From an uncultured Flavobacteriales bacterium (GTDB lineage Bacteria; Bacteroidota; Bacteroidia; Flavobacteriales_D; Crocinitomicaceae): a DNA stretch of 64,000 nucleotides. Positions 7,992 through 64,000 of this stretch are shown in pieces. The position numbers and the translations under genes were made by a program. Numbering within the stretch: the stretch's first letter is position 1; each line of letters opens with the position of its first letter. The stretch is from positions 1 to 64,000 of the forward strand of contig CAJQPA010000005.1 in assembly GCA_905480145.1 (NCBI GenBank), written 5' to 3'. Below the pieces are notes generated by a model, which saw nothing but the letters and a program-made list of their open reading frames with translations, was not told the DNA's origin and searched no databases.

Positions 7992-7999
7992 ATGTGAAT

Positions 8000-9901: not shown

Positions 9902-9904
9902 TAC

Positions 9905-10861
9905 TTAATTATTCTCTAATTGTTGAACTGTTTTCTCCAAAAGGTCGAATGTTACTTCAGCCATTTTATTTGTTTTTTCATCCAAACAAGGATTGACCTC
10001 AACAAATTCAATACACACTGTTTTCTCCAATTTAGCCAATTCCTTCAAAAAGAATTCAGCCTCATCAGGCATTAGTCCATTATCAACCGGTGTCCCTGTA
10101 CCATGCGAAGTATACTCAGGATCCATTGAATCAACATCAAATGAAACATAAATTATGTCGCAATCATTCAATTGACTTTTTATCTCTTCTAAAACCTTTT
10201 CTTTGGATTTAGCTCGAACCTGTTCAACAGTATGATTTTTAATGTTTAAACGATCTATTATTGCATCCTCTTGTTCTTCTGTATCTCTAACTGCTATAAA
10301 AACTAGATCCTCTGACCTTAGTCTTTGACCTGTCGTTTTCATAGTTTTTAATTCTCCCCAAAGATTTACTTCTTCATTGGACAAAGTATTCTTAGCCGCT
10401 TGAGTATTATCTTCATTTAAAGCTGTAGCTAATGGCATTCCATGCATATTGCCAGAAGGAGTTGTATATGGAGTATGTAAATCTCCATGAGCATCAATCC
10501 ACACTACACCCAATCTTTTATTTGGATATGCAGCTTTAACACCAGCTATTGTTCCACCAGCAGATCCATGATCCGCTGCTATGACAAAAGGAAAATCTCC
10601 TTTATCCAAGGTATTCTTCACTTCAGAAGAAACTGATTCAAACACCTTGACTAACCCTTCAATCCTTTTTGCAAAAGGGTATTTAACTTCCATATCCAGC
10701 ATTTCATTAGCGTCCTGAACATGAATTAAAGGATATTTACCAAAGAATAGATTATCGATCTTTCTTGCAGCAGTCATAATAGCCTCCGGACCTAATGAAG
10801 AACCCCTAGTTCCTGCCGTTATTTCCGATTTATTAATTAAAAGTTTGATGTTTTTTTTCAT
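9905..10861 (-). CDS. Arginase (ureohydrolase family)
   Basis: 318 residues with the binuclear manganese site of ureohydrolases: AADHGSAGGT (about residue 96), WIDAHGDLHTP (about 121-131), SFDVDSMDP (about 238-246) and EFVEVNP near the end. It is predicted to hydrolyse arginine to ornithine and urea. Agmatinase or formimidoylglutamase are alternatives within the superfamily. The nearby hutF/hutG genes already provide a route for formimidoylglutamate, so arginase is preferred. It is first in an operon with argS, so one mRNA would serve both breakdown and charging of arginine. Confidence 0.83.
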   Translation of the reverse strand: MKKNIKLLINKSEITAGTRGSSLGPEAIMTAARKIDNLFFGKYPLIHVQDANEMLDMEVKYPFAKRIEGLVKVFESVSSEVKNTLDKGDFPFVIAADHGSAGGTIAGVKAAYPNKRLGVVWIDAHGDLHTPYTTPSGNMHGMPLATALNEDNTQAAKNTLSNEEVNLWGELKTMKTTGQRLRSEDLVFIAVRDTEEQEDAIIDRLNIKNHTVEQVRAKSKEKVLEEIKSQLNDCDIIYVSFDVDSMDPEYTSHGTGTPVDNGLMPDEAEFFLKELAKLEKTVCIEFVEVNPCLDEKTNKMAEVTFDLLEKTVQQLENN

Positions 10862-10997
10862 AATACAAATTGGGTCACGAAGATAGTTATTTTTTCATTC
10901 TTGATTAACGCTATTTAGACTTTAAAGATTCAATTGATAATACTTATAATGGATGAGTTTTCTTTTCTTAACCTAGGTTAATTTATAATCATTTGAA

Positions 10998-11028
10998 TTG
11001 GATTTAATTTGTGGAAAATATATATTTA
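10998..11028 (+). promoter_or_regulatory. Possible promoter of the YceI gene
   Basis: TTG at 10998-11000, 20-nt spacer, then TATATTTA at 11021-11028, one mismatch from TAnnTTTG. It is in the divergent region between the arginase and YceI genes, 13 nt before the YceI ATG. Confidence 0.45.
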
Positions 11029-11041
11029 ACAAAAAACAAAC

Positions 11042-11698
11042 ATGAATAAAATAGTATTATCCCTCGCAGTTATTGGATTGGCATTAACATCTTGTTCTGA
11101 TGGAACGCAAGTTGAAGCATCAGATGCAGCAAATGTAAACCTCATTGAAAACGCTAAAACTATTACTTACGGCAATGTAGATGAAAGCAGTAAATTAGAT
11201 TGGGGAGCATCTCATCTTGGTGGAGCAGCTCCAAGATTCGGGATCATCAGCTTAAAAAGTGCTGAATTCTTGGTCAATGATAATTTATTAACCAATGCAA
11301 GTGTCGAGATTGACATGTCCACTTTGAGAGTTGATAACTTTGGTGAAGACACAGCGTCACAAAATCAATTGACCGGTCATTTAGTTTCTGCTGATTTCTT
11401 TGATGTTCCAAACCATCCTACTTCATCTTTTGAGTTAACTGGCATAGAATCAATAGAAGGTGATTTTAATTCAACATTGACTGGAAACTTGACCATTATG
11501 AATATTTCTAAGAGCATTTCATTTAAGGCAAATGTAGATGTGTCAGATAATGAAGTTTCTATGAAGTCAGAAAAATTCATTCTTGATAGAACAGATTGGG
11601 AGTTAGTATACAATATCGAAGGATCTGAAGGGGTTCCAATTGATTATATCATATCGAATGATTTAGAATTTACAATTGACGTGACGGTTTCTAAATAG
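11042..11698 (+). CDS. YceI family lipoprotein
   Basis: 218 residues. A lipoprotein signal peptide ends with the lipobox ALTSC (Cys18), so it should be anchored in a membrane facing the periplasm. Residues ~45-217 are a YceI beta-barrel, a lipocalin-like fold that binds isoprenoid or other long lipids: visible marks are STLRVDNF, LTGHLVSADFFDVPNHPTSSFELT and the late DRTDWELVY. The ligand is unknown. It is monocistronic between a divergent promoter region and the hut genes, which begin 77 nt downstream. Confidence 0.9.
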   Translation: MNKIVLSLAVIGLALTSCSDGTQVEASDAANVNLIENAKTITYGNVDESSKLDWGASHLGGAAPRFGIISLKSAEFLVNDNLLTNASVEIDMSTLRVDNFGEDTASQNQLTGHLVSADFFDVPNHPTSSFELTGIESIEGDFNSTLTGNLTIMNISKSISFKANVDVSDNEVSMKSEKFILDRTDWELVYNIEGSEGVPIDYIISNDLEFTIDVTVSK

Positions 11699-11775
11699 TC
11701 TATTCATTCTCTTTTGATTAAACGGATTGGACATTGTTCAATCCGTTTTTTAATTTTGTATAAATATATTTTTAT

Positions 11776-12588
11776 ATGAAAGACCCATTCATGATCATAG
11801 AACCTTTGGTTAAAAAGGTTCCGATGATTCTTAGCGTGCCGCATTGCGGAATTGAGTTTCCAAAAGAATTACAAAACGATTACAACTCAGACATGATGTC
11901 TTCTCCGGATGACACAGATTGGTTTGTTCATCAACTTTATAATTTCGCGAGTGAATTGGGAGTTACAATTATCTATGCTAGATATAGCAGATGGGTAATA
12001 GATTTAAACCGAGATCCAGAAAGTGCACCTCTATATAATGATGGGAGAATTATCACGGGTTTAACAACGACCACAGACTTTTTGGGTAACGCTATTTATT
12101 CATCTGAAGATAAAATACCGAATCAGAAAGAAATAGACAGAAGACTTAAAGAATACTACTGGCCTTATTATAAGAAAGTTCAATCTTTATTAGATGATAG
12201 AAAAGAGGCTTTTGGCAGAGCATTGTTATGGGATGCTCACTCTATTCGCAGAAGCGTACCAACGATTCGAAAAGACTATTTCCCTGACATGATTTTAGGT
12301 GATAACGATGAGAGAACAGCTGATATGAAATTAATTTCAACAGCAATGGAAAGTTTAAGTTCGGGAGGTTTTCAAGTAAATCACAACACACCATTTAAAG
12401 GTGGACATATTACTCGATATTTTGGAAAACCCGACCAGAGTATTCATGCATTGCAGTTAGAGATGAATAAAATTCTTTACATGGATGATTCTGAAACAAA
12501 ATTCAATGAAGAAAGAGCCAACAAAATGAGAGCTATTCTTAAACCTACTTTTGAAAACTTAATTGAACAATTGCAACATGTCAAATAG
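11776..12588 (+). CDS. hutG: N-formylglutamate amidohydrolase
   Basis: 270 residues of the FGase family, which cleaves N-formylglutamate to glutamate and formate, the last step of the five-step histidine pathway. Motifs are SVPHCGIEFP (about residue 20), DTDWFVHQL, WVIDLNRDPE and LLWDAHSIRR (about 152), supplying likely metal ligands. Its end overlaps hutF by 11 nt and hutD follows, so context supports the assignment. hutH, hutU and hutI are not in the window. Confidence 0.92.
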   Translation: MKDPFMIIEPLVKKVPMILSVPHCGIEFPKELQNDYNSDMMSSPDDTDWFVHQLYNFASELGVTIIYARYSRWVIDLNRDPESAPLYNDGRIITGLTTTTDFLGNAIYSSEDKIPNQKEIDRRLKEYYWPYYKKVQSLLDDRKEAFGRALLWDAHSIRRSVPTIRKDYFPDMILGDNDERTADMKLISTAMESLSSGGFQVNHNTPFKGGHITRYFGKPDQSIHALQLEMNKILYMDDSETKFNEERANKMRAILKPTFENLIEQLQHVK

Positions 12589-13951
12589 TTATATTATCAA
12601 GAAGCTATTACAAAATGATGGCTGGAAAGAGAATGTATTGATTCAATGTGATAGCAAAGGAAAAATATCTTCCATTGAGGAAAATAGTTCAGAATTAAGT
12701 GCGAAAACGATAAATGGATTTGCATTGCCTGGATTTCAGAATGGTCATTCACATGCTTTTCAATACGCAATGGCCGGCTTAGCCGAAGTCCATGACATTT
12801 CACATACTTCAGATGATTTTTGGTCATGGAGAACAGCGATGTACAAGCTAGCATTGAGTATCTCACCTGATCAAATGGAAGCTATAGCAACAATGCTTTA
12901 TTCAGAGATGGTTCGTCACGGATACACGAATGTTGCCGAATTTCACTATGTCCATCATGACAAAGACGGGAACAGTTATGGAAATTTAGCAGAAATGGGC
13001 AGCAGAATGATTTCTGCTGCAAAGGCAGCAGGCATAAACATTACATTAGTGCCGATCTTCTATCAAAAAGGAGGATTTGGAAAACCAGCAACTGAAGGCC
13101 AAAAGCGCTTCATTTCACCTGACATAGAAAATTACATGGAGCTACTTGAATCAAGCAAAGATGCATGTAAATATTATCAAGGCGCAAACATTGGAATCGG
13201 AATTCACTCAATGCGCGGAGTTGACCCTAAGATAATTGCCGAAATTGCAAAATCAGGACCGCAAAACATTCCGTTTCATATTCACATCTCCGAGCAACTG
13301 AAAGAAATCGAAGATTCTATCGCTTATTTAGGTCAACGACCAGTCGAATGGCTTCTAGATAACGTAGATCTAACTAATCGTTTTCATTTAGTCCACGCGA
13401 CACATTTAACATCTAGCGAGACCATTGGTATTGCGAAAGCAAAAGCCAACGTGGTAATTTGTCCCTCAACGGAAGGAAACTTAGGGGATGGTCTTTTTCC
13501 ATTAAATGAATTTCAAGAAAACAATGGAAAATGGAGTATTGGAACTGATAGCCACATTGGAATTAACCCACTAGAAGAACTTCGTTTACTAGATTATGGG
13601 CAACGTCTTATATCACACAAAAGGAATACATTTACTTCACCAACTACAGGTAATTCAGGAGAATTTTCAATCAACATGACGACTCTCGCTGGAAGAAAAG
13701 CAATGAATAATTTTGAAGAATCTTATTTCAAAGTTGGTGAGTATTTCAATGCATCGATTATTGATGCCTCTTCTCCACTTCTAGCAATGACTTCTAACAA
13801 CAACTTAGCTTCTTCAATAGTTTACACTTCTGATGCCACCAATCAACTGGGAACAATTGTGAATGGACAATATATTGAACGCGAGAATGATAAGCAACAA
13901 ATTATTAAAGAGAATTTCACCAGAACCATTAAAGAGTTAAAAAACCGCTAA
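12578..13951 (+). CDS. hutF: Formimidoylglutamate deiminase
   Basis: 457 residues from the ATG at 12578; a TTG at 12563 would add five residues inside hutG. Amidohydrolase-superfamily enzyme converting N-formimino-glutamate to N-formylglutamate and ammonia. The metal-binding NGHSHAFQYAMAGLAEV (about residues 48-64) is the HutF version of HxH. Later ligands are in PFHIHISEQ, FHLVHATH and IGTDSHIGINP. The start overlaps the hutG stop by 11 nt, so translation is probably coupled. The pair HutF plus HutG defines the Pseudomonas-type route rather than direct formimidoylglutamase. Confidence 0.93.
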   Translation: MSNSYIIKKLLQNDGWKENVLIQCDSKGKISSIEENSSELSAKTINGFALPGFQNGHSHAFQYAMAGLAEVHDISHTSDDFWSWRTAMYKLALSISPDQMEAIATMLYSEMVRHGYTNVAEFHYVHHDKDGNSYGNLAEMGSRMISAAKAAGINITLVPIFYQKGGFGKPATEGQKRFISPDIENYMELLESSKDACKYYQGANIGIGIHSMRGVDPKIIAEIAKSGPQNIPFHIHISEQLKEIEDSIAYLGQRPVEWLLDNVDLTNRFHLVHATHLTSSETIGIAKAKANVVICPSTEGNLGDGLFPLNEFQENNGKWSIGTDSHIGINPLEELRLLDYGQRLISHKRNTFTSPTTGNSGEFSINMTTLAGRKAMNNFEESYFKVGEYFNASIIDASSPLLAMTSNNNLASSIVYTSDATNQLGTIVNGQYIERENDKQQIIKENFTRTIKELKNR

Positions 13952-47524: not shown

Positions 47525-49132
47525 TTATTTAATGATTACTTTTTTATTAATCATATGACCATCAATTTCTACAGAGCAGAAATAAATTCCAGCCTTTAAA
47601 TTCAAATCAGAAAAAGAAATCATACTAGAAGAAAGATTTAATTCAGAAAGAACTTTCTCTCCAAGAGTTGAATGAATTTCAATCGATTCAATGATCCCCT
47701 CTTTCGCCGTGAAAACCAATACATCTGATGCTGGGTTTGGATATACCTCTAATGCTCTAAGTGCAGCAAACTCATCAAGACTATTTAAACCATCAAGATT
47801 CGTTGCTCTAACAATTCTTCTACAGAAATAACCTAATGTAGAATCAACATAAGCACTAGATTTTGCAAGTCCCATATCTGGGTTTGTAGCTAATGCATCA
47901 GCTGCAATTTGAGTTCCTGTTCCAGCAGCAAAGCCTAATGAACCTGCAATAAACTCAACGGTAGCAGGATCCCAAAAATCCCATGGAGATGCTTCTCCTG
48001 GATTACCTGTTATATATGGGAATACGTTATCAACAGGCGCTCCTATTGTTGTTCCTCCAAAATCAGTCATACCATCTGCGATTGCAGATGCTGCTTGTGC
48101 AGCCAAAGTATAAGGATCAGATCCAGCATTTATAGGTGCCAATATATCATTGTTTCCAAGTAGATTCGCTTTTGCCATTACATCATAAGAACCACTAATT
48201 TCCGTTGTAATTAAACCTGCAGAAGGAACAGAAACGTTACCTGTAGTATATATAGCAACAGGATCAGTTGGACAATGCACAGCACACATTGGTATTTCAC
48301 CAGCTTCTAGCCAGCTTAAATCTCCAATACCACCTCCCATGCTACATACCATATGCACATCATTCGAATAACCAGGAGTATTTACAGTGTTCATTGAACC
48401 TCCGTAACCATCCCAATCTCCCATCTCAGTTGTATCAATAAGAGCAGTTACATCTCCCGAAACTGGATCAACATCTAAAAACTTTGGAAGTGTTATCTCT
48501 TCATATTTATTTACTGTTGCATAACCTAAAGCTACCCAACCACCAGAACCTTGTCCAGAAAGAATAATTCTTGATGTATCAATACCATAAGTATTCCCGT
48601 TTTCATAATCTTCTCTGAAATAACGAACAGCACTTTTAGTATCCTGGATTGCACGGTATACAGCCTTCATTAAACTTGCACCTTTCAATGCTTGAGTTGC
48701 AGCAGCAGGGTTCCATCCTAAACGGTATTCAAGATTTGCCACGACATAACCACGCTTAGCATAGCTTTCACAAATCGCTGTTGTAGCAGCATCTTGTCGC
48801 ATACCAGTTGGGTTTCCGTTGTATATAATTGGTGCGAAAGTACCCGTATGTAAAACGATAACCAAAGGTCTTTCCGTTTCCGTATCGCCAGATGGCTGAT
48901 ATAAATCAAATTCTAATGCCGGAATGTCTGGAACTCCATCGCCAGTAATATCTGCTCCTGTTGGCACAAAAGGAACACCCTGACTTGCGGCTATTACAGA
49001 AAAATTTACACCGTAACCGATGTTGTTATCGACAGTAAAATCTGTAAAGACTTCATCTATATATCTATCTTGTGCATATGAGCTTCCAAGAATTGCTATA
49101 CAGCTTAAAAAAGGTAAAATTATTTTTTTCAT
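47525..49132 (-). CDS. T9SS-secreted alpha/beta hydrolase-like protein
   Basis: 535 residues. A signal peptide ends near LGSSYAQDR. The alpha/beta hydrolase fold (about 60-330) has the oxyanion region PLVIVLHTGTF and the elbow LSGQGSGGWVAL (about 195-206). Aligned to the usual GDSAGG of carboxylesterases, the nucleophile position holds Gly with Ser one residue later, so activity is uncertain. The last ~80 residues (VYPNPASD, then GIYFCSVE and ending KKVIIK) form a type A T9SS sorting domain. It follows the TonB receptor gene by 51 nt, so both probably act on one external substrate. Confidence 0.82.
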   Translation of the reverse strand: MKKIILPFLSCIAILGSSYAQDRYIDEVFTDFTVDNNIGYGVNFSVIAASQGVPFVPTGADITGDGVPDIPALEFDLYQPSGDTETERPLVIVLHTGTFAPIIYNGNPTGMRQDAATTAICESYAKRGYVVANLEYRLGWNPAAATQALKGASLMKAVYRAIQDTKSAVRYFREDYENGNTYGIDTSRIILSGQGSGGWVALGYATVNKYEEITLPKFLDVDPVSGDVTALIDTTEMGDWDGYGGSMNTVNTPGYSNDVHMVCSMGGGIGDLSWLEAGEIPMCAVHCPTDPVAIYTTGNVSVPSAGLITTEISGSYDVMAKANLLGNNDILAPINAGSDPYTLAAQAASAIADGMTDFGGTTIGAPVDNVFPYITGNPGEASPWDFWDPATVEFIAGSLGFAAGTGTQIAADALATNPDMGLAKSSAYVDSTLGYFCRRIVRATNLDGLNSLDEFAALRALEVYPNPASDVLVFTAKEGIIESIEIHSTLGEKVLSELNLSSSMISFSDLNLKAGIYFCSVEIDGHMINKKVIIK

Positions 49133-52382: not shown

Positions 52383-52664
52383 CTATTCTATTTCTGCAGA
52401 TATTCCTCTATCCAATAATGCCGTACATAATGGCTCTAGAGTTTCATACTCCCCTCTCTTCACTTGACATTTTCCTTTATGATGAATCAACCAAGTGCAT
52501 TGTTCAGCCTGCATAGCCTCATGCTTACAAACTTTTATTAAAGAGTTTATTACGTGATCAAAAGTATTATAATCATCATTATAGACAATCAAATCTTTCT
52601 TGTCAATTAATTCATCCTGAACTAATTCCTCTACTGCAATTTCTATCTGTGGTTCTTTAATCAT
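52383..52664 (-). CDS. clpS: ATP-dependent Clp protease adaptor ClpS
   Basis: 93 residues. ClpS delivers N-degron substrates to ClpA/ClpC with ClpP. The core LIVYNDDYNTFDHVINSL (about 25-42) holds the substrate-pocket Asn-Asp motif, followed by HEAMQAEQC and HHKGKCQVKRG. The start codon overlaps the stop of the 2280-residue gene by 8 nt (ATGATTAA), so translation is probably coupled. Relation to the envelope genes upstream is not obvious. Confidence 0.93.
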   Translation of the reverse strand: MIKEPQIEIAVEELVQDELIDKKDLIVYNDDYNTFDHVINSLIKVCKHEAMQAEQCTWLIHHKGKCQVKRGEYETLEPLCTALLDRGISAEIE

Positions 52665-55600
52665 TCTCCTCTAATTCAAATTGTGACTCCACTACTTCTA
52701 TAGCTTCTAATGCAAATTTACGAAATTGTGATTGAATTTCTTCTATATCTTCATCAACTACATCATAAATTCTTAATTCCAGACCGTCTGCAGTTTCTTT
52801 AAAATCTCTTTGATAAGAAAAACGCAATAACCAATCCATAAGATCTCCAGGTATTGTTCCACCCTCAATTGACACAGATAAAATCTTAGTATCTAGTTGT
52901 TGAAGCTCAGAAAGAGGAATATAAACTGTATCAATATCATCCTTAAAATTATACAGTCTAGGCAAATCATCTTCGTTTTTATAGATAACTGATTTCACGC
53001 GTTGATCAAGCTCATCAAAATAAAATGCTCCTTCCGCGTTATACCGATTTAAAACATCTCTCGGGAATTCACTAAATTGTTTTTTAGTCACAATCTGAAT
53101 TCTATCTGTTGACAATTTCTCAACTTCTAATAATGGTATCATGTTTTCTGAAGAAACAGAATCTGTGCGAACTGCAATTTTAGTGGTTGGTTCTTCAATA
53201 AACTCAGTTTCCAATGTACCCAATTCAGATTGAAGAATTCCTTTTCCTTCTTTTTTAAGAAGTTGCTGAGCAGACCATAATGAAATTCTTTGTCCTTTAT
53301 AATATGCTACAACAAACGCTCCTCGAATTCCTCTTTTTAAAGCTTCATCTCTTCTAGGTTCTGCTTCTTTAATAGAATTATATAACCCAGTATTATATCG
53401 AATTTGGCCTGTTGGCAAACGAACAGTGCTTAACTCTGGAAGATTATACACCACAGCAGCGCTAACGGGTCTATTGAACACGCCTATCTGAACGGTGAAA
53501 AACAATCCTTGCATCATTTCAATTGCATCCGCTTTCGATGCTCCTGGTGCTTGATTGTAGGATGCTTCATCTACAGCTGGGATTTCAGTCGTTAATGGTA
53601 TACCTAATTTTTCTGCGGTTTTTTCTGCGACTTCAACAAGTAATTCGTTTGTTCCTTTTGGCACACAAGTTCCAGAAGCTTCAAGTCTTCTTGCATTACC
53701 AAACGAAATTCGTTCTCCATCACAGTAGGCCACAACAAAGGCATCAGAATATCCTAATCCGCGAATATCAGATCTTGCTTGAGTAACTTTATCACTGCTA
53801 TTGAAAAATCCTGCCATATAACGTGTAACGTTTGTTCCAGCAATTTTCTCTCCAGAAACAGGGCTAAATTCTTTGTATAAATTTTGAGGTATTGGTTTTG
53901 CGAAAGCTCCAATTTGAACACGGTAAACTAATCCACTTGGGCTTTCAACATCTACAGGTATAGGGTTGGCTTCAGAATATGTGCTTTCAGTATTGGTGTT
54001 CATTGCAAAGCCTTCTGCCGGCAACTGAATCAATGTCGCTATAGCAATTGCTTGAATAGGCTTTATACTTCTAGCAACCAGGTTTTGCATTTTCATAGCC
54101 TGTTCTTCGTTCTTTGGTAATAATTCATCTGCAGCATACTTCTCTTGGATTAAATCCACTTTCAGTTGGTCAATATTAGTGTTTAATTCTTTAATTAATA
54201 CAATATTAGAATCAATTTTACCTTTGTTTTCCTCTGGAGTATTCTGAGCAATTAAAGCATTTGTAGCAATAATTTTCTTTCTCAATTCTTGTTCTAACAG
54301 ACTTATTTTTCTTTCTGTATCCAAGGCAATAGTTCCTTTTTCGAAATACTCTTTGTACTCCTCTTCACCAGCCATTTGTCTTTCATCATTAAAAGAAATG
54401 ATTTCATCAACAGACTTAGGATTGATCACTGGGCTCGTTGGAGTATCTGCCAAGAGTAACTCTTCGACCGTTCTCAATTCTTCTTCCAATAAAGATTTTT
54501 CTGAAATTAAACGGGCTTGTTTTACTTCAAGATTTGGAAGATCTCTTTTCTTAGCATCTTTGATTTCATCCCCTAAAGCAATAATTGAAGTTGTCAGTTC
54601 TCCAATTTGAACAGAAAAGGTTCTCTTTCTTTTTTGAAGTTCTTCTTGAGTCATTAAGGAAATATTTTCTCGGTCTTCTATTTCCTTTCGCTGCTCATTG
54701 GCGACTGTTCTTGCAATATTGGTATTAGTAAGTTCTTGACGCTCATTTATTTGATTCGTGAGAAATACTTTTTCTTCATCCGATTTAGCCGCCTCAACCT
54801 CTTTAATTAAAAGTCCAATTTCGGTTTGAGCATTTTCATTTGCGTCAATTGCTTTATCAATGACTGTGTTGTCTTCAGCCCCTTTATTGATTTCATCTAA
54901 TTCGGATGACAATTCTTTATTGATCTGGTTTTTCTCATTGATTTGATCAATAGATGAAATTGGAGAAGCTGGTTCTATAAACTCTTGTTCAAGCTCACCA
55001 ACTGTAACGTTGATTCTTCTTCTTTTCTGTTGAATCATTCCCAACTCTTCAGAAAGAATATCTTTATTATTCGACAATTGCTCTGTTTCACCTCCAGACT
55101 CAATCTCTTTATTGATTTGTTCTATTTCTGATTCAAGCTGATTTTCATATGTCTCTAAAATTTGATCTTGCTCTTTTAAAGCCTCCAGTTCATTATGTTC
55201 AGCATCAATTTGAGACACGTTTTCACCAAGAATATCAGTACGTAAAGATTCTATGAATTCATTCTCATTAGTCGGTTGCACGGCAAGTTGATTAGAAGCA
55301 TTGATCGCTTGGGTCTCACGGTTTTTACTTTGTCCAAGTGCTTTTTCTAAAGCCATTTCTTCCAACTCTATAGAGACAGACCAACTGCGGGTTATTGCTT
55401 TCTTTTTTGATGCAATTTCCTTGGTTAGCTTTTCTTGAAGTTCTCTTTCTCTATCTGCAAGCTGTTCAAACTTGTCACGTGCATTTTCATCATTGATTTT
55501 TGCAATGTCAGCGATATAATCTTTATCCGTCTGTGAAATAACTAGCTGCACTTCTTCTTCTCCGATTGAATTTCTTAAATTCTCTACATACTCTTCTCTT

Positions 55601-58600
55601 CTAGAATCATTTGATCCTTCCATCGCTTCAACTATTTCCAATTGCTCTTCTAAAGAAGTGCTCTCTGGTTGACGCTTAATATTAGTTTGAAGCTCCACTT
55701 TCTTATCCGATAGTTTTGCAGCCAAAGAATTAATGATTTCTAACAATGCCTTATTTTTCTCAATTCGCGAAAGGTCAGATTCTTCAATTTTCTGAATTTC
55801 ATCATCAAAAGGTAAAATCAATTCTTTTTCCAACTCTTGCTTAGCGTCAACTGATGCGATCGGTTCATTCACATTATTTTCACTCTCAATGATTTGAGCT
55901 CGTTCGGCTATTGTATTTTCTTTCTTTGAAATCAATTCATCTAGCTTCTCAATGCGATCAATCAAATTTCTATCCTCTGGTTTATCATTTAATTTTTCTT
56001 GTGACTTTTCTTTATCCAAAATGATTTTCGCTAAGGTTTTTTCATCAACCTCTTGTAATTCAACTAATTTCTCATTGTCACTAAGTACATCGTTGGATTC
56101 AATTTTTTCGATATCACGGTCATAATTTTTAGCAATTTCAGAGAAAATTTCATCCGTTGAAGGAGTATCCATTGTTAAATTATTCAACACTTCAATCTCA
56201 GATTTATAATTTTCAATTGCCCTTCTTTTATCCTGAATTAATTCTGTCAATTTTTCATTCCTATCTTCTATTAATTTATTTTGAGGATCTGAACTTAACT
56301 TCTCTTCTGTAATCTCTTTTTCTTGAATTATTTTAGCTAAAACATTTTCGTCTAACTCTCTCAAACCGTCCAAAACCATAATTTCAGTCAAGGATTCATC
56401 ATCCTTAATACGCTTTATTTCGCTTTCATAACCTTGCGTAATCTCCGCTAATATTTCACTAGCCGTTGAGGGATCGGACTCTGTTTGTTCTCCAGTATCA
56501 ACTTGAGGTTTCCGGTCAACAATTGCTTCTTCTTTTTCTTTAATTAATTCTGAAATTAATTCCTTTTTCACTTTTAATTCTGAATTCGTTGGATCTTGAT
56601 CAATTTCTTTTTGAACATTATTCAACGCCTTTTCCAATTCAGAAATCGTTTTTCGATCAATAGTTTGAAGGTTTTCCATCTTCTCACTAAAAGAAAGAGA
56701 TTTATCGTTTTCAACATTATCTATTTGCTCTTCATAATTCTCTACTATCTCGCTTAACATATCTTCTTTTGTCAAAGCAATATTAGTTGGTGTTTCGCTA
56801 TTTTTTAACTCTGCGATGCGTTCATTGTGTACTTTATTTTCTTCTATGGCATTAATCTTTAGTGTCTCCAACTGATTCAGTTCTTCCTTAATCTCGACAT
56901 TTTCAGGCGAGTCTCCCAATTCTGTTTCTAGTTCACCTATTCGGTTATTAAGAGTTTCTATAGCACTTAAATTAGTTTTAAACAACGCCTCTTCTTTTTC
57001 TAAATCACTTTTAGATTGATCTGCAAGAATCGATTCCTTTTCATTACTAATCTTTTTAGAAATATTTTCAATTTGGCTCACATGTTCTATCCTCGGAACT
57101 GATGCGTCAGGAACATAATTAGGATTTAATTCAGGATGTTCTTTTTCTATTTCAAGAAGTTCATTTTCAAAAGAGGCAATATCATTTTCATCTGAAACAT
57201 CTTCACCAATTTTTAGAGAAGCAATGACTTCTTGTCCATTAACCGCAACTGATGCATCATTTAGCATGGCACTTTGGAGAGAAGCTATGTTATTGTCAAT
57301 AACACTTAATTTTTCATTTTTTCTGTTTATCCTATCAGAAGTAGTATTAATTACTTCATCAAGTAAATCGATTTCGGCTTCATTTTCAGCTATTTCATTT
57401 CTAATTGCTTCAGCTTCTTTCTTTTTAGCATTCGAAAGTTTGTTGTTAAGAATAATATTCTTCCCATTTAAAACTTCTTTAGATTCTTCGTAGCCTAAAA
57501 CCTCTTTTCGGAGTTTTGAAACATCTTCAGTCATAGCTACGCTCTGATCTATCAAATTCTGTACAATTGCATCAGGAGATTCGCTTTTTATTTTTTGAAT
57601 TAAGTCTTTATTGTCTGCCAATAACTTCAATGCCTCAGCCTCTTTATCTTGCCCTAATAATGTATTGAATTCATTTTCAAGAGAAGAAATGTTTTGGTTT
57701 GATGGTTTCTTTATCGTTCTTAAAGATTCATTTTTCAATATTTCTAAACCTACAATTTCTTCAGATAATTGATTTATCTCAAGCTCTAGTGTCAATGCAT
57801 CCGAGAGGAGCTCATGTTTTCTAGCCACATCAACCTCATTATTTGCTTGAGTAACTAATTCGTCTTGTTTCTCTTTTATCTCCCTGATTTCATTTGCTTT
57901 AGCTACAATTTCAGCGTTCAGGTTACTCTCGATATTCTCAACCTTTTCCTCTTTTAATTGCTCTGTAATAGCCAAATCTTCTAATTGCTCACTTACTTCG
58001 CGCATTGTCATATCTGAAAACCCCAATTCAGAGAGTACTTTATTCCGCATTTGTTGGGCATCTAATTCTTTTAGATCAAATTTATCGACATTGACATCAA
58101 GGGTAGATCGCTTTCGAATAACTTCTGCCATCATTGCCTCTGCTCCTTCGACACTTTCATCAAATAAATTGATGATTTTCACAACCTCTTCGCCATCAAT
58201 ATTGGCGTGCATTGTCTTTTGTTTTAAGGGTCTGAATTCATCTAAAAAAGGTACTTCAACTACAAACTTATAGATGTTCTCGCTACCTCCCACTTCAACC
58301 TCATAATTATACTTTCCGCCTTTGGGAAAGACAAATGAATATTTACCCGTTTCATTGGATTTGATTTGTCCTATCTCTTCATTGTTCGTAAATGAAGTTA
58401 TACGAACGTTCATTTCTTTATTATCAGGATTAATTTCAGAAAGGAAATCTCCCATAACAATAACTTCACGAATAGGAACCCTTGCAACTCTAACATTATA
58501 AACATGAAGTTTGCCATCTTGTGATTGTCTGGCTGAAGCAAAATAAGCATTCTGAAAAGTTGAATCTACCACATAAAATAAATCATCATCCGGCGAACTG

Positions 58601-59499
58601 ATTGCAAAATCAACATTTTCAACTTTCTCAAAACTACCAGTCTCATGATTCAATCTTCCCATAAAAACATCATAACCTCCCATTGAGTTATGACCTTTAG
58701 AGCTAAAGAACAAAAAATCTCCTGATGAATGCATAAAAGGAAAATCTTCATCTTCATTCGTGTTAACTTCTCCTAATATTTTTTGTGAATCACCCCACTC
58801 GTTATTTGGCAACCTTCGCCTAACATAAATGTCCTTGCCCGACGCAACGTTATCTCCGTAACTTGAATAATAAATAGCTTGGGCATTTGGAGGATAGTGA
58901 ATTATTGGAGTGTGACCTTTCTTTTTATCAATTTTAGATTGAAATTCTTCAGACACAAGAATATTACCACCTACAGTTTGCATATTCTGGTACAACCTAA
59001 AAAACTTGGCTTTATCAATTTCTTTTTTTTCTGAAACTACAATGTCAGTAAATGTGGTCAACAATCGTTTTCCATTATTACACATTTGAATCTCACGTTC
59101 GACGTTATAACGATCATCTTTTTTTGATCTCTTATTTATGTACAGATTATAATACTTTATGGCTGAATTAAATTCAAAATTTAGATGAAGTGCTTTTCCA
59201 TAAAAATAGAAAGCTCTAGGTTCTGGATTGCTTTGTTTTACTGCAAAATCCAAATAACGTAGCGCGTCTTTCTTTTTATAAGAATTGAATAATAGACACG
59301 TTCCGTATTGATAATTGTAATTGCCGTCTGATGGATTTAATGAGATTAAACGTAAAAATAAAGACGTAGCTTCCACGTATTGTTCATTTTCAAACAATTT
59401 GTTCGCATCTTCTTTTATCTCTATCTCAGTTTGGCAAAATGACCAGACTGAAAGAAACAAGAATAGAACCGTGTGAATAATATGCCCTCTTTTCTTCAT
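52657..59499 (-). CDS. Giant PorE-like, coiled-coil and SPOR-domain protein
   Basis: 2280 residues in one open frame. A signal peptide ends about residue 22 (SVWSFCQ). TPR-type helices follow (about 30-165), then a PD40/WD40-like propeller (about 190-360; AIYYSSYG, FLFFSSKGHNSMGGYDVFMG) and a regulatory beta domain (about 365-430). A coiled coil of ~1300 residues (about 480-1800) contains 5-6 tandem repeats of ~95 residues. Two SPOR-like domains come next (about 1853-1935 and 1996-2075; YRVQIGAF, DAFVVAYCDGERIS, FTVQIGVF, GAFVVAYYKGQRIS), then a unique C-terminus. The front half resembles T9SS PorE, but the OmpA-like anchor is missing. Function unknown; predicted periplasmic and peptidoglycan-associated. 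Confidence 0.85.
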   Translation of the reverse strand: MKKRGHIIHTVLFLFLSVWSFCQTEIEIKEDANKLFENEQYVEATSLFLRLISLNPSDGNYNYQYGTCLLFNSYKKKDALRYLDFAVKQSNPEPRAFYFYGKALHLNFEFNSAIKYYNLYINKRSKKDDRYNVEREIQMCNNGKRLLTTFTDIVVSEKKEIDKAKFFRLYQNMQTVGGNILVSEEFQSKIDKKKGHTPIIHYPPNAQAIYYSSYGDNVASGKDIYVRRRLPNNEWGDSQKILGEVNTNEDEDFPFMHSSGDFLFFSSKGHNSMGGYDVFMGRLNHETGSFEKVENVDFAISSPDDDLFYVVDSTFQNAYFASARQSQDGKLHVYNVRVARVPIREVIVMGDFLSEINPDNKEMNVRITSFTNNEEIGQIKSNETGKYSFVFPKGGKYNYEVEVGGSENIYKFVVEVPFLDEFRPLKQKTMHANIDGEEVVKIINLFDESVEGAEAMMAEVIRKRSTLDVNVDKFDLKELDAQQMRNKVLSELGFSDMTMREVSEQLEDLAITEQLKEEKVENIESNLNAEIVAKANEIREIKEKQDELVTQANNEVDVARKHELLSDALTLELEINQLSEEIVGLEILKNESLRTIKKPSNQNISSLENEFNTLLGQDKEAEALKLLADNKDLIQKIKSESPDAIVQNLIDQSVAMTEDVSKLRKEVLGYEESKEVLNGKNIILNNKLSNAKKKEAEAIRNEIAENEAEIDLLDEVINTTSDRINRKNEKLSVIDNNIASLQSAMLNDASVAVNGQEVIASLKIGEDVSDENDIASFENELLEIEKEHPELNPNYVPDASVPRIEHVSQIENISKKISNEKESILADQSKSDLEKEEALFKTNLSAIETLNNRIGELETELGDSPENVEIKEELNQLETLKINAIEENKVHNERIAELKNSETPTNIALTKEDMLSEIVENYEEQIDNVENDKSLSFSEKMENLQTIDRKTISELEKALNNVQKEIDQDPTNSELKVKKELISELIKEKEEAIVDRKPQVDTGEQTESDPSTASEILAEITQGYESEIKRIKDDESLTEIMVLDGLRELDENVLAKIIQEKEITEEKLSSDPQNKLIEDRNEKLTELIQDKRRAIENYKSEIEVLNNLTMDTPSTDEIFSEIAKNYDRDIEKIESNDVLSDNEKLVELQEVDEKTLAKIILDKEKSQEKLNDKPEDRNLIDRIEKLDELISKKENTIAERAQIIESENNVNEPIASVDAKQELEKELILPFDDEIQKIEESDLSRIEKNKALLEIINSLAAKLSDKKVELQTNIKRQPESTSLEEQLEIVEAMEGSNDSRREEYVENLRNSIGEEEVQLVISQTDKDYIADIAKINDENARDKFEQLADRERELQEKLTKEIASKKKAITRSWSVSIELEEMALEKALGQSKNRETQAINASNQLAVQPTNENEFIESLRTDILGENVSQIDAEHNELEALKEQDQILETYENQLESEIEQINKEIESGGETEQLSNNKDILSEELGMIQQKRRRINVTVGELEQEFIEPASPISSIDQINEKNQINKELSSELDEINKGAEDNTVIDKAIDANENAQTEIGLLIKEVEAAKSDEEKVFLTNQINERQELTNTNIARTVANEQRKEIEDRENISLMTQEELQKRKRTFSVQIGELTTSIIALGDEIKDAKKRDLPNLEVKQARLISEKSLLEEELRTVEELLLADTPTSPVINPKSVDEIISFNDERQMAGEEEYKEYFEKGTIALDTERKISLLEQELRKKIIATNALIAQNTPEENKGKIDSNIVLIKELNTNIDQLKVDLIQEKYAADELLPKNEEQAMKMQNLVARSIKPIQAIAIATLIQLPAEGFAMNTNTESTYSEANPIPVDVESPSGLVYRVQIGAFAKPIPQNLYKEFSPVSGEKIAGTNVTRYMAGFFNSSDKVTQARSDIRGLGYSDAFVVAYCDGERISFGNARRLEASGTCVPKGTNELLVEVAEKTAEKLGIPLTTEIPAVDEASYNQAPGASKADAIEMMQGLFFTVQIGVFNRPVSAAVVYNLPELSTVRLPTGQIRYNTGLYNSIKEAEPRRDEALKRGIRGAFVVAYYKGQRISLWSAQQLLKKEGKGILQSELGTLETEFIEEPTTKIAVRTDSVSSENMIPLLEVEKLSTDRIQIVTKKQFSEFPRDVLNRYNAEGAFYFDELDQRVKSVIYKNEDDLPRLYNFKDDIDTVYIPLSELQQLDTKILSVSIEGGTIPGDLMDWLLRFSYQRDFKETADGLELRIYDVVDEDIEEIQSQFRKFALEAIEVVESQFELEEND

Positions 59500-59544: not shown

Positions 59545-60168
59545 TTATTTATTAAAAAGGTTCATTTTGTTCTCTGTTCCGCTCAATAGTCTACCAATAT
59601 TTTTACGATGGGCAAAAATAACAGCAAAACTTAAAATTATGCTAAAAGCGATTAGAAATGGAGAAGTCGCACCAAAAATGAATATTACAGAAATCGGAAA
59701 ACTGATAGCCCCAACAATAGCACCGAGTGAAACATAATTAGAGCTAATAAAAAAGATTAAGAACAAAAGAATACATATTCCTGCAGCCTGAGGATGAACA
59801 CCTATGATCACACCTAAAGATGTAGCTACTCCCTTTCCTCCATTAAATCCTGCAAAAATGGGAAGAACATGTCCCACTACGGAAATCAATGCACATACCA
59901 ATTGAATTTCAATTAATTTATCACTACCCCATTGATGATCTAATAAAATATACGGCAGCAATACTGCAATTAACCCTTTAAATATATCAATGGTTAGCAC
60001 TATAATTCCTGGTTTTTTACCCAAAACACGAAACGTGTTGGTTGCCCCAGCATTATTGCTTCCATGTTCACGAACATCTAATCCATATTTGGCTTTACCT
60101 AGCCACACTGCTGTTGGTATAGACCCCAATAAATAAGCAATAATTCCAAAAAGTATTAGTTCATTCAT
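59545..60168 (-). CDS. plsY: Acyl phosphate:glycerol-3-phosphate acyltransferase
   Basis: 207 residues with five to seven transmembrane helices. PlsY transfers acyl groups from acyl phosphate to glycerol 3-phosphate, the first step of phospholipid synthesis. The family motifs are GSIPTAVWLGK (about 16-26), REHGSNNAGATNTFRVLG (about 34-51) and FNGGKGVATSLG (about 108-119). Inner membrane. The start codon shares one base with the stop of the upstream large gene (TAATG), so they are coupled. The giant gene follows 45 nt downstream. Confidence 0.96.
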   Translation of the reverse strand: MNELILFGIIAYLLGSIPTAVWLGKAKYGLDVREHGSNNAGATNTFRVLGKKPGIIVLTIDIFKGLIAVLLPYILLDHQWGSDKLIEIQLVCALISVVGHVLPIFAGFNGGKGVATSLGVIIGVHPQAAGICILLFLIFFISSNYVSLGAIVGAISFPISVIFIFGATSPFLIAFSIILSFAVIFAHRKNIGRLLSGTENKMNLFNK

Positions 60169-63100
60169 TATTCTGCAAATAAGCCCATGAACTTGCCTAA
60201 ATAGGCATTGTTGTTCGTGGATTCAAATTTAAAATTCTTTTTCTTTCTCTTGTCTTCTTTCATTTCAGTTAACTTAGTTTGCATTTCAACATCACCCGTT
60301 TTTATTTTTAAGGTTCCATTTTTCTTCTCCATTGAATAATGCATGAAGTAATCTCTTCCTCCTGGAATGTTTATATACATAGAGAATTTATCACTTGGTG
60401 TTTTTGAATAGTATTGCTGAAAAAAGGCTTTGAAAGGAACATATTTCATGACAGGGACATTATACATTGATACTAGCACTGCAGCTTCAACATTAGTAAT
60501 TAATCCCTTGTCTTGAGAATCTCTATCATATGAGCTCAATTTTAATCCAGAAATCGTTATTGATTTTTCCAAACAGTTCGGAAGTCTTTTAACAGCTCCT
60601 AAACGAATAAATTCATCTTTCAATTTATCTGCAGCTTTTTGGTCTTCCCACTCTACCACAGCCATTTCTAGTTTAGTAGAATTAAAGTCCATTGGTTTAA
60701 GCTCTTCAATCTCATTGATTCTTTTAGCTACGTCCTGAAAAATTCCTTTATCCATAGCCATATCAAATCTTGAGGTTAAATCCATTGAGGTTTCTCCTGT
60801 AGTTTGATTGTAACTAATCGTACCAACACTCTCTACAATTGCATCTCCATAATTCATCCCCAAATCAATAACTCCCATTCCATTTAAAGAACAACTTTCG
60901 GTATGAAGAGCCAAATAATTCCCTTTCTCATTCATATTAATGAGCTTCTCACGTGAACCAATTTCAAATTGATTTGCACCATAGTTATATTGTAAGTAAC
61001 CATTTGATGTCATAACTATTTGGTCATTTTTATCCACTAAAGAAGAAAGAAAGGTCGGATACAACTTTAAACTATCAGTCGATGGAGAATCTCTCCAAAC
61101 AATACCAGCGGAAATAATTTCGCCATTTAAATCCTTCATTTTATTAGCAACAGGAATTTGAATATTCTTAGGGTCTATTTCAGACTCAAAAGCCATCCAA
61201 TTCCTATCAAACTTTTCACAGCCATGATTAATCCGTGTGGCACCTGTAAATGATATCAGAGGATTAGCCGCAGCTACCGATACTTTCCCATAATAATCAA
61301 ACTCATTACTTAACTTGAAACTCGTTTCAGCCGCTATTTCGCCAGATGCTCTTGTTTGAAAAGCCGTATCCAAACCAATATTATTCATGGAGATATAAGT
61401 TACATTACTATCCATGTCAAAGTATGGATACATACCGGAAGCTTCGTAGTCTCTTCTCGCCTTAATAGACACATCCGCTTTTTCAAACTTATGATACTTC
61501 GTTATATAATTGGCAACTATCTTCGCATTCTTTAACTTATCGAGCTTTGCCTTTTTACGAACAGTCAATTTCATACTATCTGGAAATATTCTAGCATCTG
61601 CAATGTCTATGTATTCAACTTTATCACAAAAAATTGTTTTCGCTTTTAAATCGAATTTGGCTTTCGGCGCTCTAAATTGAAGAGAATCTTGTTTTGGATG
61701 CATTGAGTAAAAGTTAGGTCCAACTAGATCAACTCCAGAATTAATTGCAATTTCTTTATCCGCCTTTTTCTGCATCTCTATAGACAATTCATCCATCAAC
61801 CAGGTAAACATGTCCATTCTGCACATGTACTGATTTACTGGGAAATATACTTCTGATTCACCCGCATTAGATTTAAATTTACCGTTTCTATCTCTAAAAG
61901 AAACATGTGCGTTTACATTATCTGTTTTAAACGCTAAAGCATTTTCATTAATATCGTCACTTTCATTCTTCAAACTAAAACCGGCAGTATCTGAATCAAT
62001 ATCATACCTTGAATACTTGAAATTATCAGAGATGAGAGTAGCCGTTGCAAATGACATCAATCCCCTACCCGTTAATCCTTCTGGGCGAACAAAAGCTATT
62101 CCTTTCAGGGTGGCTTCACTATCATAAAATTGCATCTCATTCTTAGGAGTTGATTGTGCTTTTAACACATTATCTTTTGGCACATAAGTAATGTATGCAT
62201 CGATACCAATAACATCTGGAAACTCAACCCCCGATTCAACAGGCTTGTTCTCAAACTGAGCAATTCCAACAGTAGAATCTGGCAAAAAAGTTAACGCTTT
62301 AGACACAGAAGTTGATTGAACAAAATTAATCGTACCCGCACCTTGCAATCCATTATTTGAAAGAACTATTTTGTTTTCAAATTTTGCACCAGTTCCATAA
62401 AAATCTAGACCTCCCTCAGGTGCTTTAGTTACGAAACCAAATGAATAATCTGGCATTATTTTCAACTCTTCCGTAATCTTAGGGAATATTCCAGCAGAAG
62501 TTAACTCACCTTTTAATCTAAACGTTGTTTCTTCAAAACTATTTAAACTATCTCTTTCAAAAGGATTAACAGTATAGTAGAAACGTGTGCTATCGTATGC
62601 ACCCCTGTATATATCCTTATCATTATAATATACCTTTGTAGAATTATCAGAAACTAGTTTCGGATACATTCCAAAATCTAAATTTTTCCCCGACTTATTA
62701 TTTACATCGTCAATTAATATTTCTCCTGAAACACCAAAAATGCTGCTCACCATCGCAATAGACTTTTCACTATCCTGCTTCCTCATTGGTCGGACTCTAA
62801 ATAGTGCTTCTTCAGTACTCAATAATTTGAATTTATAATCACCGTAATCAAATAATGCTGCCTTAGTATTCACCTCTAACTTTCCAGCATTAATCCATCC
62901 AGCAAAATTAAAATTTCTATTTTTTTTGATTTTGACTGTACTATTCGTTGGAAAAGCAACTGTATTTTTCGCCTTAGAGATCAACACTTTATCAATGGCC
63001 TCAAGGTCTAAATCAAAAGTCACAAGACTCATAACCCCAAAATTCTTCATGAGACGCCGCTCACTATTTTGCTTATTATAACTCTTTTGAACTGATGATA

Positions 63101-64000
63101 AATATTCATCTTTATCAATTTCTTCTTGAGAATATCCTTTTAAAGTTTTGGGTCTAAAATCAGACTTGAAGGCTATATTATCATAATCTTTCTTACCCGC
63201 TTTTGCATTGACAAAAGTTTGCAACTTTTTATTGACTTGAACCATTTTCAAGTCAGTGTCATAGCTAATGAATCCCATATTTGATAAATTGATCAAAGTT
63301 CCTTTAGCTTGAGAAACTGTTTGTCCTAAAGCAGTTGCTGCTTTTCCTTCAGTAATATAATATTCATCATATTTGTAACAGTAATTCGCAATCGCACTTA
63401 ATGGATGAACTGTCTCCATAGCTTGTAATCTGTCGTATACTTGCTCATTGAAATAATCTGAAGATTCAAACGTAGCTACTTTCTGCTCTTGAGATGTTCC
63501 AAACTCAAAGGTGAAATGAAGATTGTCTGAGTCTTCTTGCCAAATAATTTTAGGTACATATATTTCCAATTGATGATAAGAATCTTGAAAAGGAGCTTTT
63601 GCAATTCCAGAACCTGAGCGCGATAGTTGAATGTTCTTTTTCTCCAAATCATACGTGAAATTTATACCAGCATGAGAGATAGAGTCTCCTGAACTCAAAT
63701 AAAGTGCAAATAAAGCCCTATCAATAGCAATTTTATCTTTTGAAATAAGAATCTTTTTAGAGGTTGCTTTCATAAAAACGGTACCATCTTTCTTGTAGGT
63801 AATCTTTGCAGGTTTGGTGCTCGTCCCAGCACCAATAAAACTAGCACCTTGCATCGCATACCCTCCAATATAATCAACATTCGCAACGATATCTTTAATT
63901 AAAAGGTTTTTATCAAAGGATAAAAACTGGGGGTAAACTTTATCGGCGTCTCTATTGATTTTAAAAGCTCTATCTACCAATCCCCCAGAAATTTGTTCTG
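60168..64000 (-). CDS. Very large beta-rich protein, N-terminus outside window
   Basis: At least 1277 residues; the frame is open through base 64000, so the TTG at 63980 is only an internal codon and the start lies outside. Not recognised. The protein is almost all beta-strand-like, with recurring Gly-containing turns such as LQGAGTINF, LTGRGLMSF and LNGMGVIDLG, each followed by strands ending in polar residues; a repetitive beta structure, perhaps of LptA/OstA-like jellyroll type, is possible. The C-terminus is basic (KEDKRKKKNFKFES). No T9SS sorting domain ends it. It is coupled to plsY by TAATG, which suggests an envelope role. Confidence 0.7.
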   Translation of the reverse strand, partial: EQISGGLVDRAFKINRDADKVYPQFLSFDKNLLIKDIVANVDYIGGYAMQGASFIGAGTSTKPAKITYKKDGTVFMKATSKKILISKDKIAIDRALFALYLSSGDSISHAGINFTYDLEKKNIQLSRSGSGIAKAPFQDSYHQLEIYVPKIIWQEDSDNLHFTFEFGTSQEQKVATFESSDYFNEQVYDRLQAMETVHPLSAIANYCYKYDEYYITEGKAATALGQTVSQAKGTLINLSNMGFISYDTDLKMVQVNKKLQTFVNAKAGKKDYDNIAFKSDFRPKTLKGYSQEEIDKDEYLSSVQKSYNKQNSERRLMKNFGVMSLVTFDLDLEAIDKVLISKAKNTVAFPTNSTVKIKKNRNFNFAGWINAGKLEVNTKAALFDYGDYKFKLLSTEEALFRVRPMRKQDSEKSIAMVSSIFGVSGEILIDDVNNKSGKNLDFGMYPKLVSDNSTKVYYNDKDIYRGAYDSTRFYYTVNPFERDSLNSFEETTFRLKGELTSAGIFPKITEELKIMPDYSFGFVTKAPEGGLDFYGTGAKFENKIVLSNNGLQGAGTINFVQSTSVSKALTFLPDSTVGIAQFENKPVESGVEFPDVIGIDAYITYVPKDNVLKAQSTPKNEMQFYDSEATLKGIAFVRPEGLTGRGLMSFATATLISDNFKYSRYDIDSDTAGFSLKNESDDINENALAFKTDNVNAHVSFRDRNGKFKSNAGESEVYFPVNQYMCRMDMFTWLMDELSIEMQKKADKEIAINSGVDLVGPNFYSMHPKQDSLQFRAPKAKFDLKAKTIFCDKVEYIDIADARIFPDSMKLTVRKKAKLDKLKNAKIVANYITKYHKFEKADVSIKARRDYEASGMYPYFDMDSNVTYISMNNIGLDTAFQTRASGEIAAETSFKLSNEFDYYGKVSVAAANPLISFTGATRINHGCEKFDRNWMAFESEIDPKNIQIPVANKMKDLNGEIISAGIVWRDSPSTDSLKLYPTFLSSLVDKNDQIVMTSNGYLQYNYGANQFEIGSREKLINMNEKGNYLALHTESCSLNGMGVIDLGMNYGDAIVESVGTISYNQTTGETSMDLTSRFDMAMDKGIFQDVAKRINEIEELKPMDFNSTKLEMAVVEWEDQKAADKLKDEFIRLGAVKRLPNCLEKSITISGLKLSSYDRDSQDKGLITNVEAAVLVSMYNVPVMKYVPFKAFFQQYYSKTPSDKFSMYINIPGGRDYFMHYSMEKKNGTLKIKTGDVEMQTKLTEMKEDKRKKKNFKFESTNNNAYLGKFMGLFAE

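Follow-up and report, generated by a model that had tools for sequence, protein, structure and literature searches.

A widespread giant protein of Bacteroidota with a PorE-like TPR–PD40 head, a helical-repeat middle and two SPOR domains

The minus-strand gene at 52657-59499 of the window (the whole 64,000-nucleotide stretch analyzed, from an uncultured Flavobacteriales bacterium) encodes a 2280-residue protein that is a new combination of known parts. A signal peptide, TPR helices, a reduced PD40 propeller and a CRD-like beta domain form its head; a long, charged helical middle with tandem repeats follows, and the tail carries two SPOR domains. The protein is widespread, it is undescribed as far as the searched literature goes, and it is among the largest envelope proteins in these bacteria. 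The initial annotation had recognized a giant multi-domain protein here, and this observation was confirmed, as the domain order recurs in nearly all relatives examined. The features of the locus are the following.

52383..52664 (-): clpS, downstream neighbor (PF02617, 62 bits)
52657..59499 (-): complete gene for an exported protein of 2280 aa with TPR, PD40, CRD-like, helical-repeat and dual-SPOR parts
59434..59499 (-): residues 1-22, signal peptide of type I without lipobox (by eye and from 33 aligned relatives)
59053..59427 (-): TPR domain, residues 25-149 (AF2 model, VIA)
58438..59037 (-): residues 155-354, reduced propeller region with three clear PD40 repeats (PF07676, model strands)
58165..58413 (-): CRD-like beta domain, residues 363-445 (model strands, alignment to paralogue L094)
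54070..58140 (-): helical, highly charged middle, residues 454-1810 (composition, helical periodicity)
55576..57063 (-): residues 813-1308, tandem array of five helical repeats of ~103 residues (self-alignment, profile)
55000..55224 (-): sixth, detached repeat, residues 1426-1500 (repeat profile)
53665..53937 (-): SPOR domain 1, residues about 1855-1945 (PF05036, SPOR-like model fold, invariant columns)
53230..53514 (-): SPOR domain 2, residues about 1996-2090 (model fold, VIA, invariant columns)
52675..53106 (-): C-terminal alpha/beta domain, residues about 2132-2275, second half ferredoxin-like (model, weak fold matches, alignment)
59545..60168 (-): plsY, upstream neighbor (TIGR00023, over cut-off)
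60168..64000, continuing to contig position 64775 (-): exported protein of 1535 aa, first gene of the operon

The window is part of a 133,583-base contig in an assembly of 2.44 Mb and 63 contigs, and the nearest named relative is a metagenome-derived Fluviicola sp. genome (L033), which makes membership in the Crocinitomicaceae probable. The gene is a single open reading frame with an ATG start, and its limits had been given exactly by the initial annotation, which had also considered that the frame might be split into separate proteins. It was found unsplit: the frame is long and intact in 35 relatives, most of them encoding 1.7-2.9 kaa, with L050 among the 35 cut by a contig end. These continuous frames rule out a frameshift or fusion artefact. 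In L048, the gene appears as two overlapping frames (6804-7556 and 7541-13783), due to a frameshift or an assembly error. Since dS was saturated in many comparisons, dN/dS was taken only from those where dS was estimable; it was well below 1 in all of these, at 0.03-0.2 in head, middle and tail. The helical middle evolves fastest, at 2-3 times the rate of head and tail; across the 35 proteins, residues 1-480 and 1840-2080 are well conserved and those in between poorly. Judged from these sequence comparisons, the 2280-residue frame is a real gene, selected as one protein under strong purifying selection.

The head was described from an alignment of 33 sequences, and its AF2 model reached a mean pLDDT of 86.8. 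By eye, the signal peptide of the window copy was recognized as MKKRGHIIHTVLFLFLSVWSFC, followed by Q. Signal peptides end in ..AQ or ..GQ in the relatives and in ..FCQ in the window copy, Q23 being nearly invariant after A or G in the 33 aligned relatives. No lipobox was seen by eye in the signal peptides of the family alignment, which argues against a lipid anchor in the giant proteins. Residues 25-149 are helical in the model, with a VIA Z of about 16 to solved TPR domains over 119-130 residues. Residues 155-354 show blade-like strands. PF07676 (PD40) was matched by 31 of the 33 family members; the window copy alone scored 17.1 bits, under the 20.9 threshold. Residues 363-445 form a beta sandwich in the model at the position of the PorE CRD, and CarboxypepD_reg was matched by 5 of the 33. 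A sequence search of the PDB with the head returned TPR matches only, and Foldseek and VIA comparisons of the whole head gave mainly TPR matches. The signal peptide, TPR, PD40 and beta domain read earlier from the sequence were thus all recovered.

The head profile of the giant family retrieves many PD40-OmpA proteins from the same genome. The best paralogue, L094 (E 9e-76), aligns over the TPR, blade and CRD parts; it has about two blades more than the giant protein, and its C-terminal domain is OmpA. Its own best family match is NF053607 (CHU_0125), under the cut-off. The window protein scored 71.9 bits against NF053607, below the 620-bit cut-off. NF052230 (PorE; cut-off 600) gave 69 bits at the giant locus in the genome search and 82 in the best relative; no match to it was listed for the window protein itself, and no OmpA (PF00691) match was found in the giant gene. 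A separate, better PorE candidate, L090, scored 393 bits against NF052230, also under the 600-bit cut-off, and has a lipobox-like signal peptide. About 17 OmpA domains are present in the genome. In a FastTree of the blades, which was midpoint-rooted on a short alignment with outgroups from a single own-genome set, the giant proteins formed one clade (support 0.958) beside L094, L084 and L078, away from the PorE-like L086 and L090. Tree and domain order fit a single event, in which the helical-SPOR tail appears to have taken the place of the OmpA end.

On these alignments, the giant protein is best described as an extra, diverged paralogue of TPR-PD40-CRD-OmpA proteins of the PorE/CHU_0125 type, and not as PorE: it lacks a lipobox and an OmpA domain, and L090 is a better PorE candidate in a genome that also has about 17 OmpA domains. 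A replacement of PorE by the giant protein is ruled out by L090 and these OmpA domains. The PorE domain order assigned to the front therefore stands as a homologous head. The proposed exchange of wall contact holds for this paralogue, where a SPOR tail takes the place of OmpA; it is not supported for PorE itself, for which the genome has the separate candidate L090. The outer-membrane link proposed with it was not borne out, since PorE is a lipoprotein and the type I signal peptides of the giant family lack a lipobox. Elsewhere in the window, 47525-49132 encodes an esterase-like (BD-FAE) protein with a type IX sorting domain (PF18962); from this sorting domain, the organism probably has a type IX secretion system (T9SS).

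The composition of the middle is of helix type, with 0-8% proline plus glycine per 60 residues and aromatics almost absent. A self-BLAST gave the diagonal only and so showed no repeats. Windowed self-alignment reached a top score of 169 at offset 110, as compared with 95 for the best of 600 shuffled pairs, and the profile built from it found copies in 25 of 35 proteins, with six in the window (residues 813-898, 917-1001, 1019-1104, 1121-1205, 1231-1308 and 1426-1500). The median spacing was 103 residues, and 71 of 89 spacings fell between 90 and 115. Within the genus, copy number (1-10) followed protein length (r = 0.93, n = 18 related and hence non-independent proteins), at ~90 aa per copy. 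Two conserved breaks in the consensus, SLS and DPxN, suggest three helices per repeat. The profile had no match in giant proteins outside the order, whose middles are likewise charged and helix-like. Hydrophobic periodicities of 3.4 (z 4.7) and 3.8 (z 6.4) exceeded the heptad value of 3.5 (z 2.1).

These repeats with conserved breaks, which make up at least part of the middle, together with the lack of a clean 3.5-residue period, lead us to prefer a stack of helical bundles over one coiled coil. The earlier description of a giant coiled coil was therefore right as to a helix-type middle, but is not supported as to a single coiled coil. A continuous helix extends 0.15 nm per residue and a spectrin-sized repeat about 5 nm, and the periplasm is 20-30 nm deep. 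The ~1,350-residue middle would be ~200 nm long as a single helix and ~65 nm as spectrin-sized repeats. Both geometries exceed the depth of the periplasm, so the middle is expected to run along the wall or to fold back. The long rod across the periplasm envisaged in the initial annotation is unlikely, given the ~200 nm of a single helix.

In the tail, PF05036 (SPOR) was matched by 34 of 35 C-terminal segments, that of the window included (23.7 bits, over the 21-bit cut-off; 17.4 in the full-length scan). All 35 aligned sequences keep both copies conserved, in keeping with the two SPOR-like domains reported earlier; with PF07676 in 31 of 33 heads, profile searches found both PD40 and SPOR. In SPOR1, Q1862, A1865 and R1893 are invariant and F1866 nearly so; in SPOR2, Q2004 and Y2035 are invariant. 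RlpA Q270 contacts denuded glycan (PMC6895207), and Q1862 and Q2004 correspond to it by position in the VQxG motif. The Ala and Phe at +3 and +4 after the Gln of SPOR1 are invariant or nearly so. A basic patch is general in SPOR domains (PMC6895207). The AF2 model of the tail had a mean pLDDT of 81 overall and about 90-96 in both SPOR-like domains. SPOR2 matched the CwlC SPOR domain 1x60 with a VIA Z of 7.5 over 69 residues, tied with other ferredoxin-like folds; Foldseek of the tail model gave nothing at E 0.001 or better, and a PDB sequence search with the tail gave nothing significant. The C-terminal alpha/beta domain had weak fold matches (Z 6.6-8.8). Further degenerate SPOR-like C-terminal copies with Asn-rich linkers between them were seen in L049 (13914-15869), L034 (6028-7716) and L050 (2317-4209); such extra copies occupy the place of the alpha/beta domain in some other families. 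The genome carries an Amidase_3 gene, a source of denuded glycan, the SPOR ligand.

Among 60 relatives searched, the full-length protein was present in most genomes of the genus, and most of the order's other families had it as well. The same arrangement (TPR, PD40, CRD-like, helical middle, two SPOR) was seen in 35 proteins from the order, and all 20 loci examined outside it have the head, a middle of 991-1,609 residues and the SPOR pair. In the order sample, 126 of 199 genomes had a SPOR-pair match of E 1e-40 or lower, and most of these matches lay in very long frames. In the family-balanced class sample, about 105 of 247 genomes, roughly two fifths, matched at 1e-30 or better, the matches falling in some two dozen further families. 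Only 3 of 296 genomes matched at 1e-20 in the phylum sample of high-quality genomes. Confinement to one order, suggested by that sample, is ruled out by the class sample and the 20 out-of-order loci. The difference between phylum and class rates points to a family that is rare in well-cultured lineages; this rarity would account for the missing description. The initial annotation knew of no protein with this arrangement; neither did the literature searched describe one, and PD40 with SPOR gave no relevant paper.

The gene order is conserved: a gene for a ~1,500-aa exported protein, plsY, the giant gene and clpS. In the window, the exported gene and plsY overlap by 1 base, 45 bases separate plsY from the giant gene, and clpS overlaps the giant gene by 8. 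Among 36 loci of the order, 32 have the exported gene and 27 have clpS, and contig ends account for some of the absences; at the 20 loci outside it, clpS was found in 14, and plsY and the exported gene in 8 each. The 1535-aa protein (L070 2169-6776) had no convincing match in Pfam, NCBIfam or the PDB. It has a signal peptide and is highly conserved: in 13 sequences drawn from many families, column identity averaged 50%. Even in a distant family (L118), its gene adjoins plsY, and other families have the gene with no giant gene next to it. In three genomes (G015, G024 and G042), the exported gene is followed directly by clpS and the giant gene is absent; these natural empty sites lie at L150 885-954, L153 673-984 with L147, and L152 629-937. 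For G024, a contig gap is ruled out by clpS directly beside the upstream gene. The giant gene would thus have been lost cleanly or never been present there, and with the flanking genes directly adjacent, it is dispensable and cannot be a core division factor in these genomes. G015 also encodes a 283-aa protein (L154 6379-7230 (-)) composed of a signal peptide, CUB and SPOR, 50% identical to SPOR1 of the window. As a CUB-SPOR chimera, it was rejected as a short member of the giant family.

We consider it somewhat probable that the giant protein is a soluble periplasmic scaffold, probably septum-enriched, whose tail binds amidase-processed wall and whose head docks a protein, the two being separated by a helical spacer of variable length. 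The recurrence of the architecture, the SPOR and PD40 matches across the family, the invariant SPOR Gln, the Amidase_3 gene, the missing lipobox, the repeats that track length, the conserved ends around a variable middle and the conserved operon argue for this. By its signal peptide, the protein would be exported through Sec. The two SPOR domains, given SPOR biology and the conserved residues, would bind glycan strands stripped of peptides by amidases and so place the protein at the cell wall, chiefly where cells divide. The TPR-PD40-CRD head, inherited from PorE/CHU_0125-like envelope proteins, would dock an envelope protein; the candidate partner is either the ~1,500-aa exported protein encoded in this operon or the machinery of division or envelope constriction. 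Gain and loss of the ~103-residue repeats would set the distance between head and tail, with the middle probably lying along the wall or folded back rather than radial. Against this scaffold stand the several genomes without the giant gene and the cytosolic or inner-membrane location of the neighbors PlsY and ClpS, which may be operon passengers.

Three other functions were weighed against the scaffold. The head is homologous to that of PD40-OmpA proteins, and loss of CHU_0125 damages outer-membrane integrity in C. hutchinsonii (PMC5891637), as would fit the tether favored in the initial annotation, with the head on an outer-membrane protein and the SPOR tail on the wall, a longer-range counterpart of PorE, Pal or OmpA tethers. 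We regard this as rather unlikely, since the giant protein has neither lipid anchor nor barrel, its middle is much longer than spanning the periplasm needs, and the genome already holds many OmpA-domain tethers. A role in the biogenesis of envelope lipid or the outer membrane, together with the ~1,500-aa protein and PlsY and with SPOR only positioning the machinery at new envelope, draws on the operon being conserved over many families: the exported gene lies upstream at 32 of 36 loci within the order and at 8 of 20 beyond it. However, that gene is found in other families without the giant gene and stays where the giant gene is lost, which makes this role improbable. It is likewise improbable that the protein is an accessory of the T9SS or of the machinery for gliding, with the PorE-like head holding the machine to the septal or polar wall. 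The PorE-like head (NF052230, up to 82 bits in relatives) and the T9SS-type cargo in the window (PF18962 in 47525-49132) speak for it, but the giant gene lies away from T9SS genes, the genome has L090 (393 bits) as a PorE candidate of its own, and only 3 of 296 phylum-sample genomes match, though many presumably carry T9SS.

The soluble scaffold can be extended by analogy to a widespread class of periplasmic, spectrin-like scaffolds, in which a length-tunable rod along the wall would connect denuded septal or polar wall to an envelope machine, with the ~1,500-aa protein as partner. We hold this to be speculative and unlikely as a whole. If true, a spectrin-like rod would organize division or envelope constriction in many environmental Bacteroidota. 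The giant protein unites two wall-binding traditions, those of the PD40-OmpA tethers and the SPOR division proteins. The lengths of its tandem-repeat spacer are a natural series on what sets distance in the periplasm, and the natural empty sites and length variants make the protein testable in cultured relatives.

Among known systems, rods of spectrin-type repeats resemble the middle in their tandem helical repeats and variable copy number, a spectrin repeat having ~106 residues as compared with ~103 here; the likeness is one of analogy, as the repeats have no sequence match to spectrin. The SPOR proteins FtsN, DamX, DedD, RlpA and CwlC (PF05036) share the conserved glycan-contact Gln, and RlpA has the Ala and Phe of SPOR1 at the same spacing from it. 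They are far smaller and lack the TPR-propeller head, whereas the giant repeat protein ends in two or more SPOR copies. The CHU_0125 family (NF053607; PMC5891637) has the same TPR-PD40 front but an OmpA end and ~650 residues. PorE of the P. gingivalis T9SS is an outer-membrane lipoprotein with five blades, and its OmpA_C domain binds the peptide stem (PMC7192894). PorE (NF052230) and the giant protein, both expected to be periplasmic, share the N-terminal order of TPR, PD40 propeller and CRD-like domain and a C-terminal wall-binding domain. Unlike PorE, the giant protein has no lipobox, about three PD40 blades and no OmpA, and it adds a helical stretch of ~1,350 residues and SPOR domains, which are expected to bind stem-less glycan.
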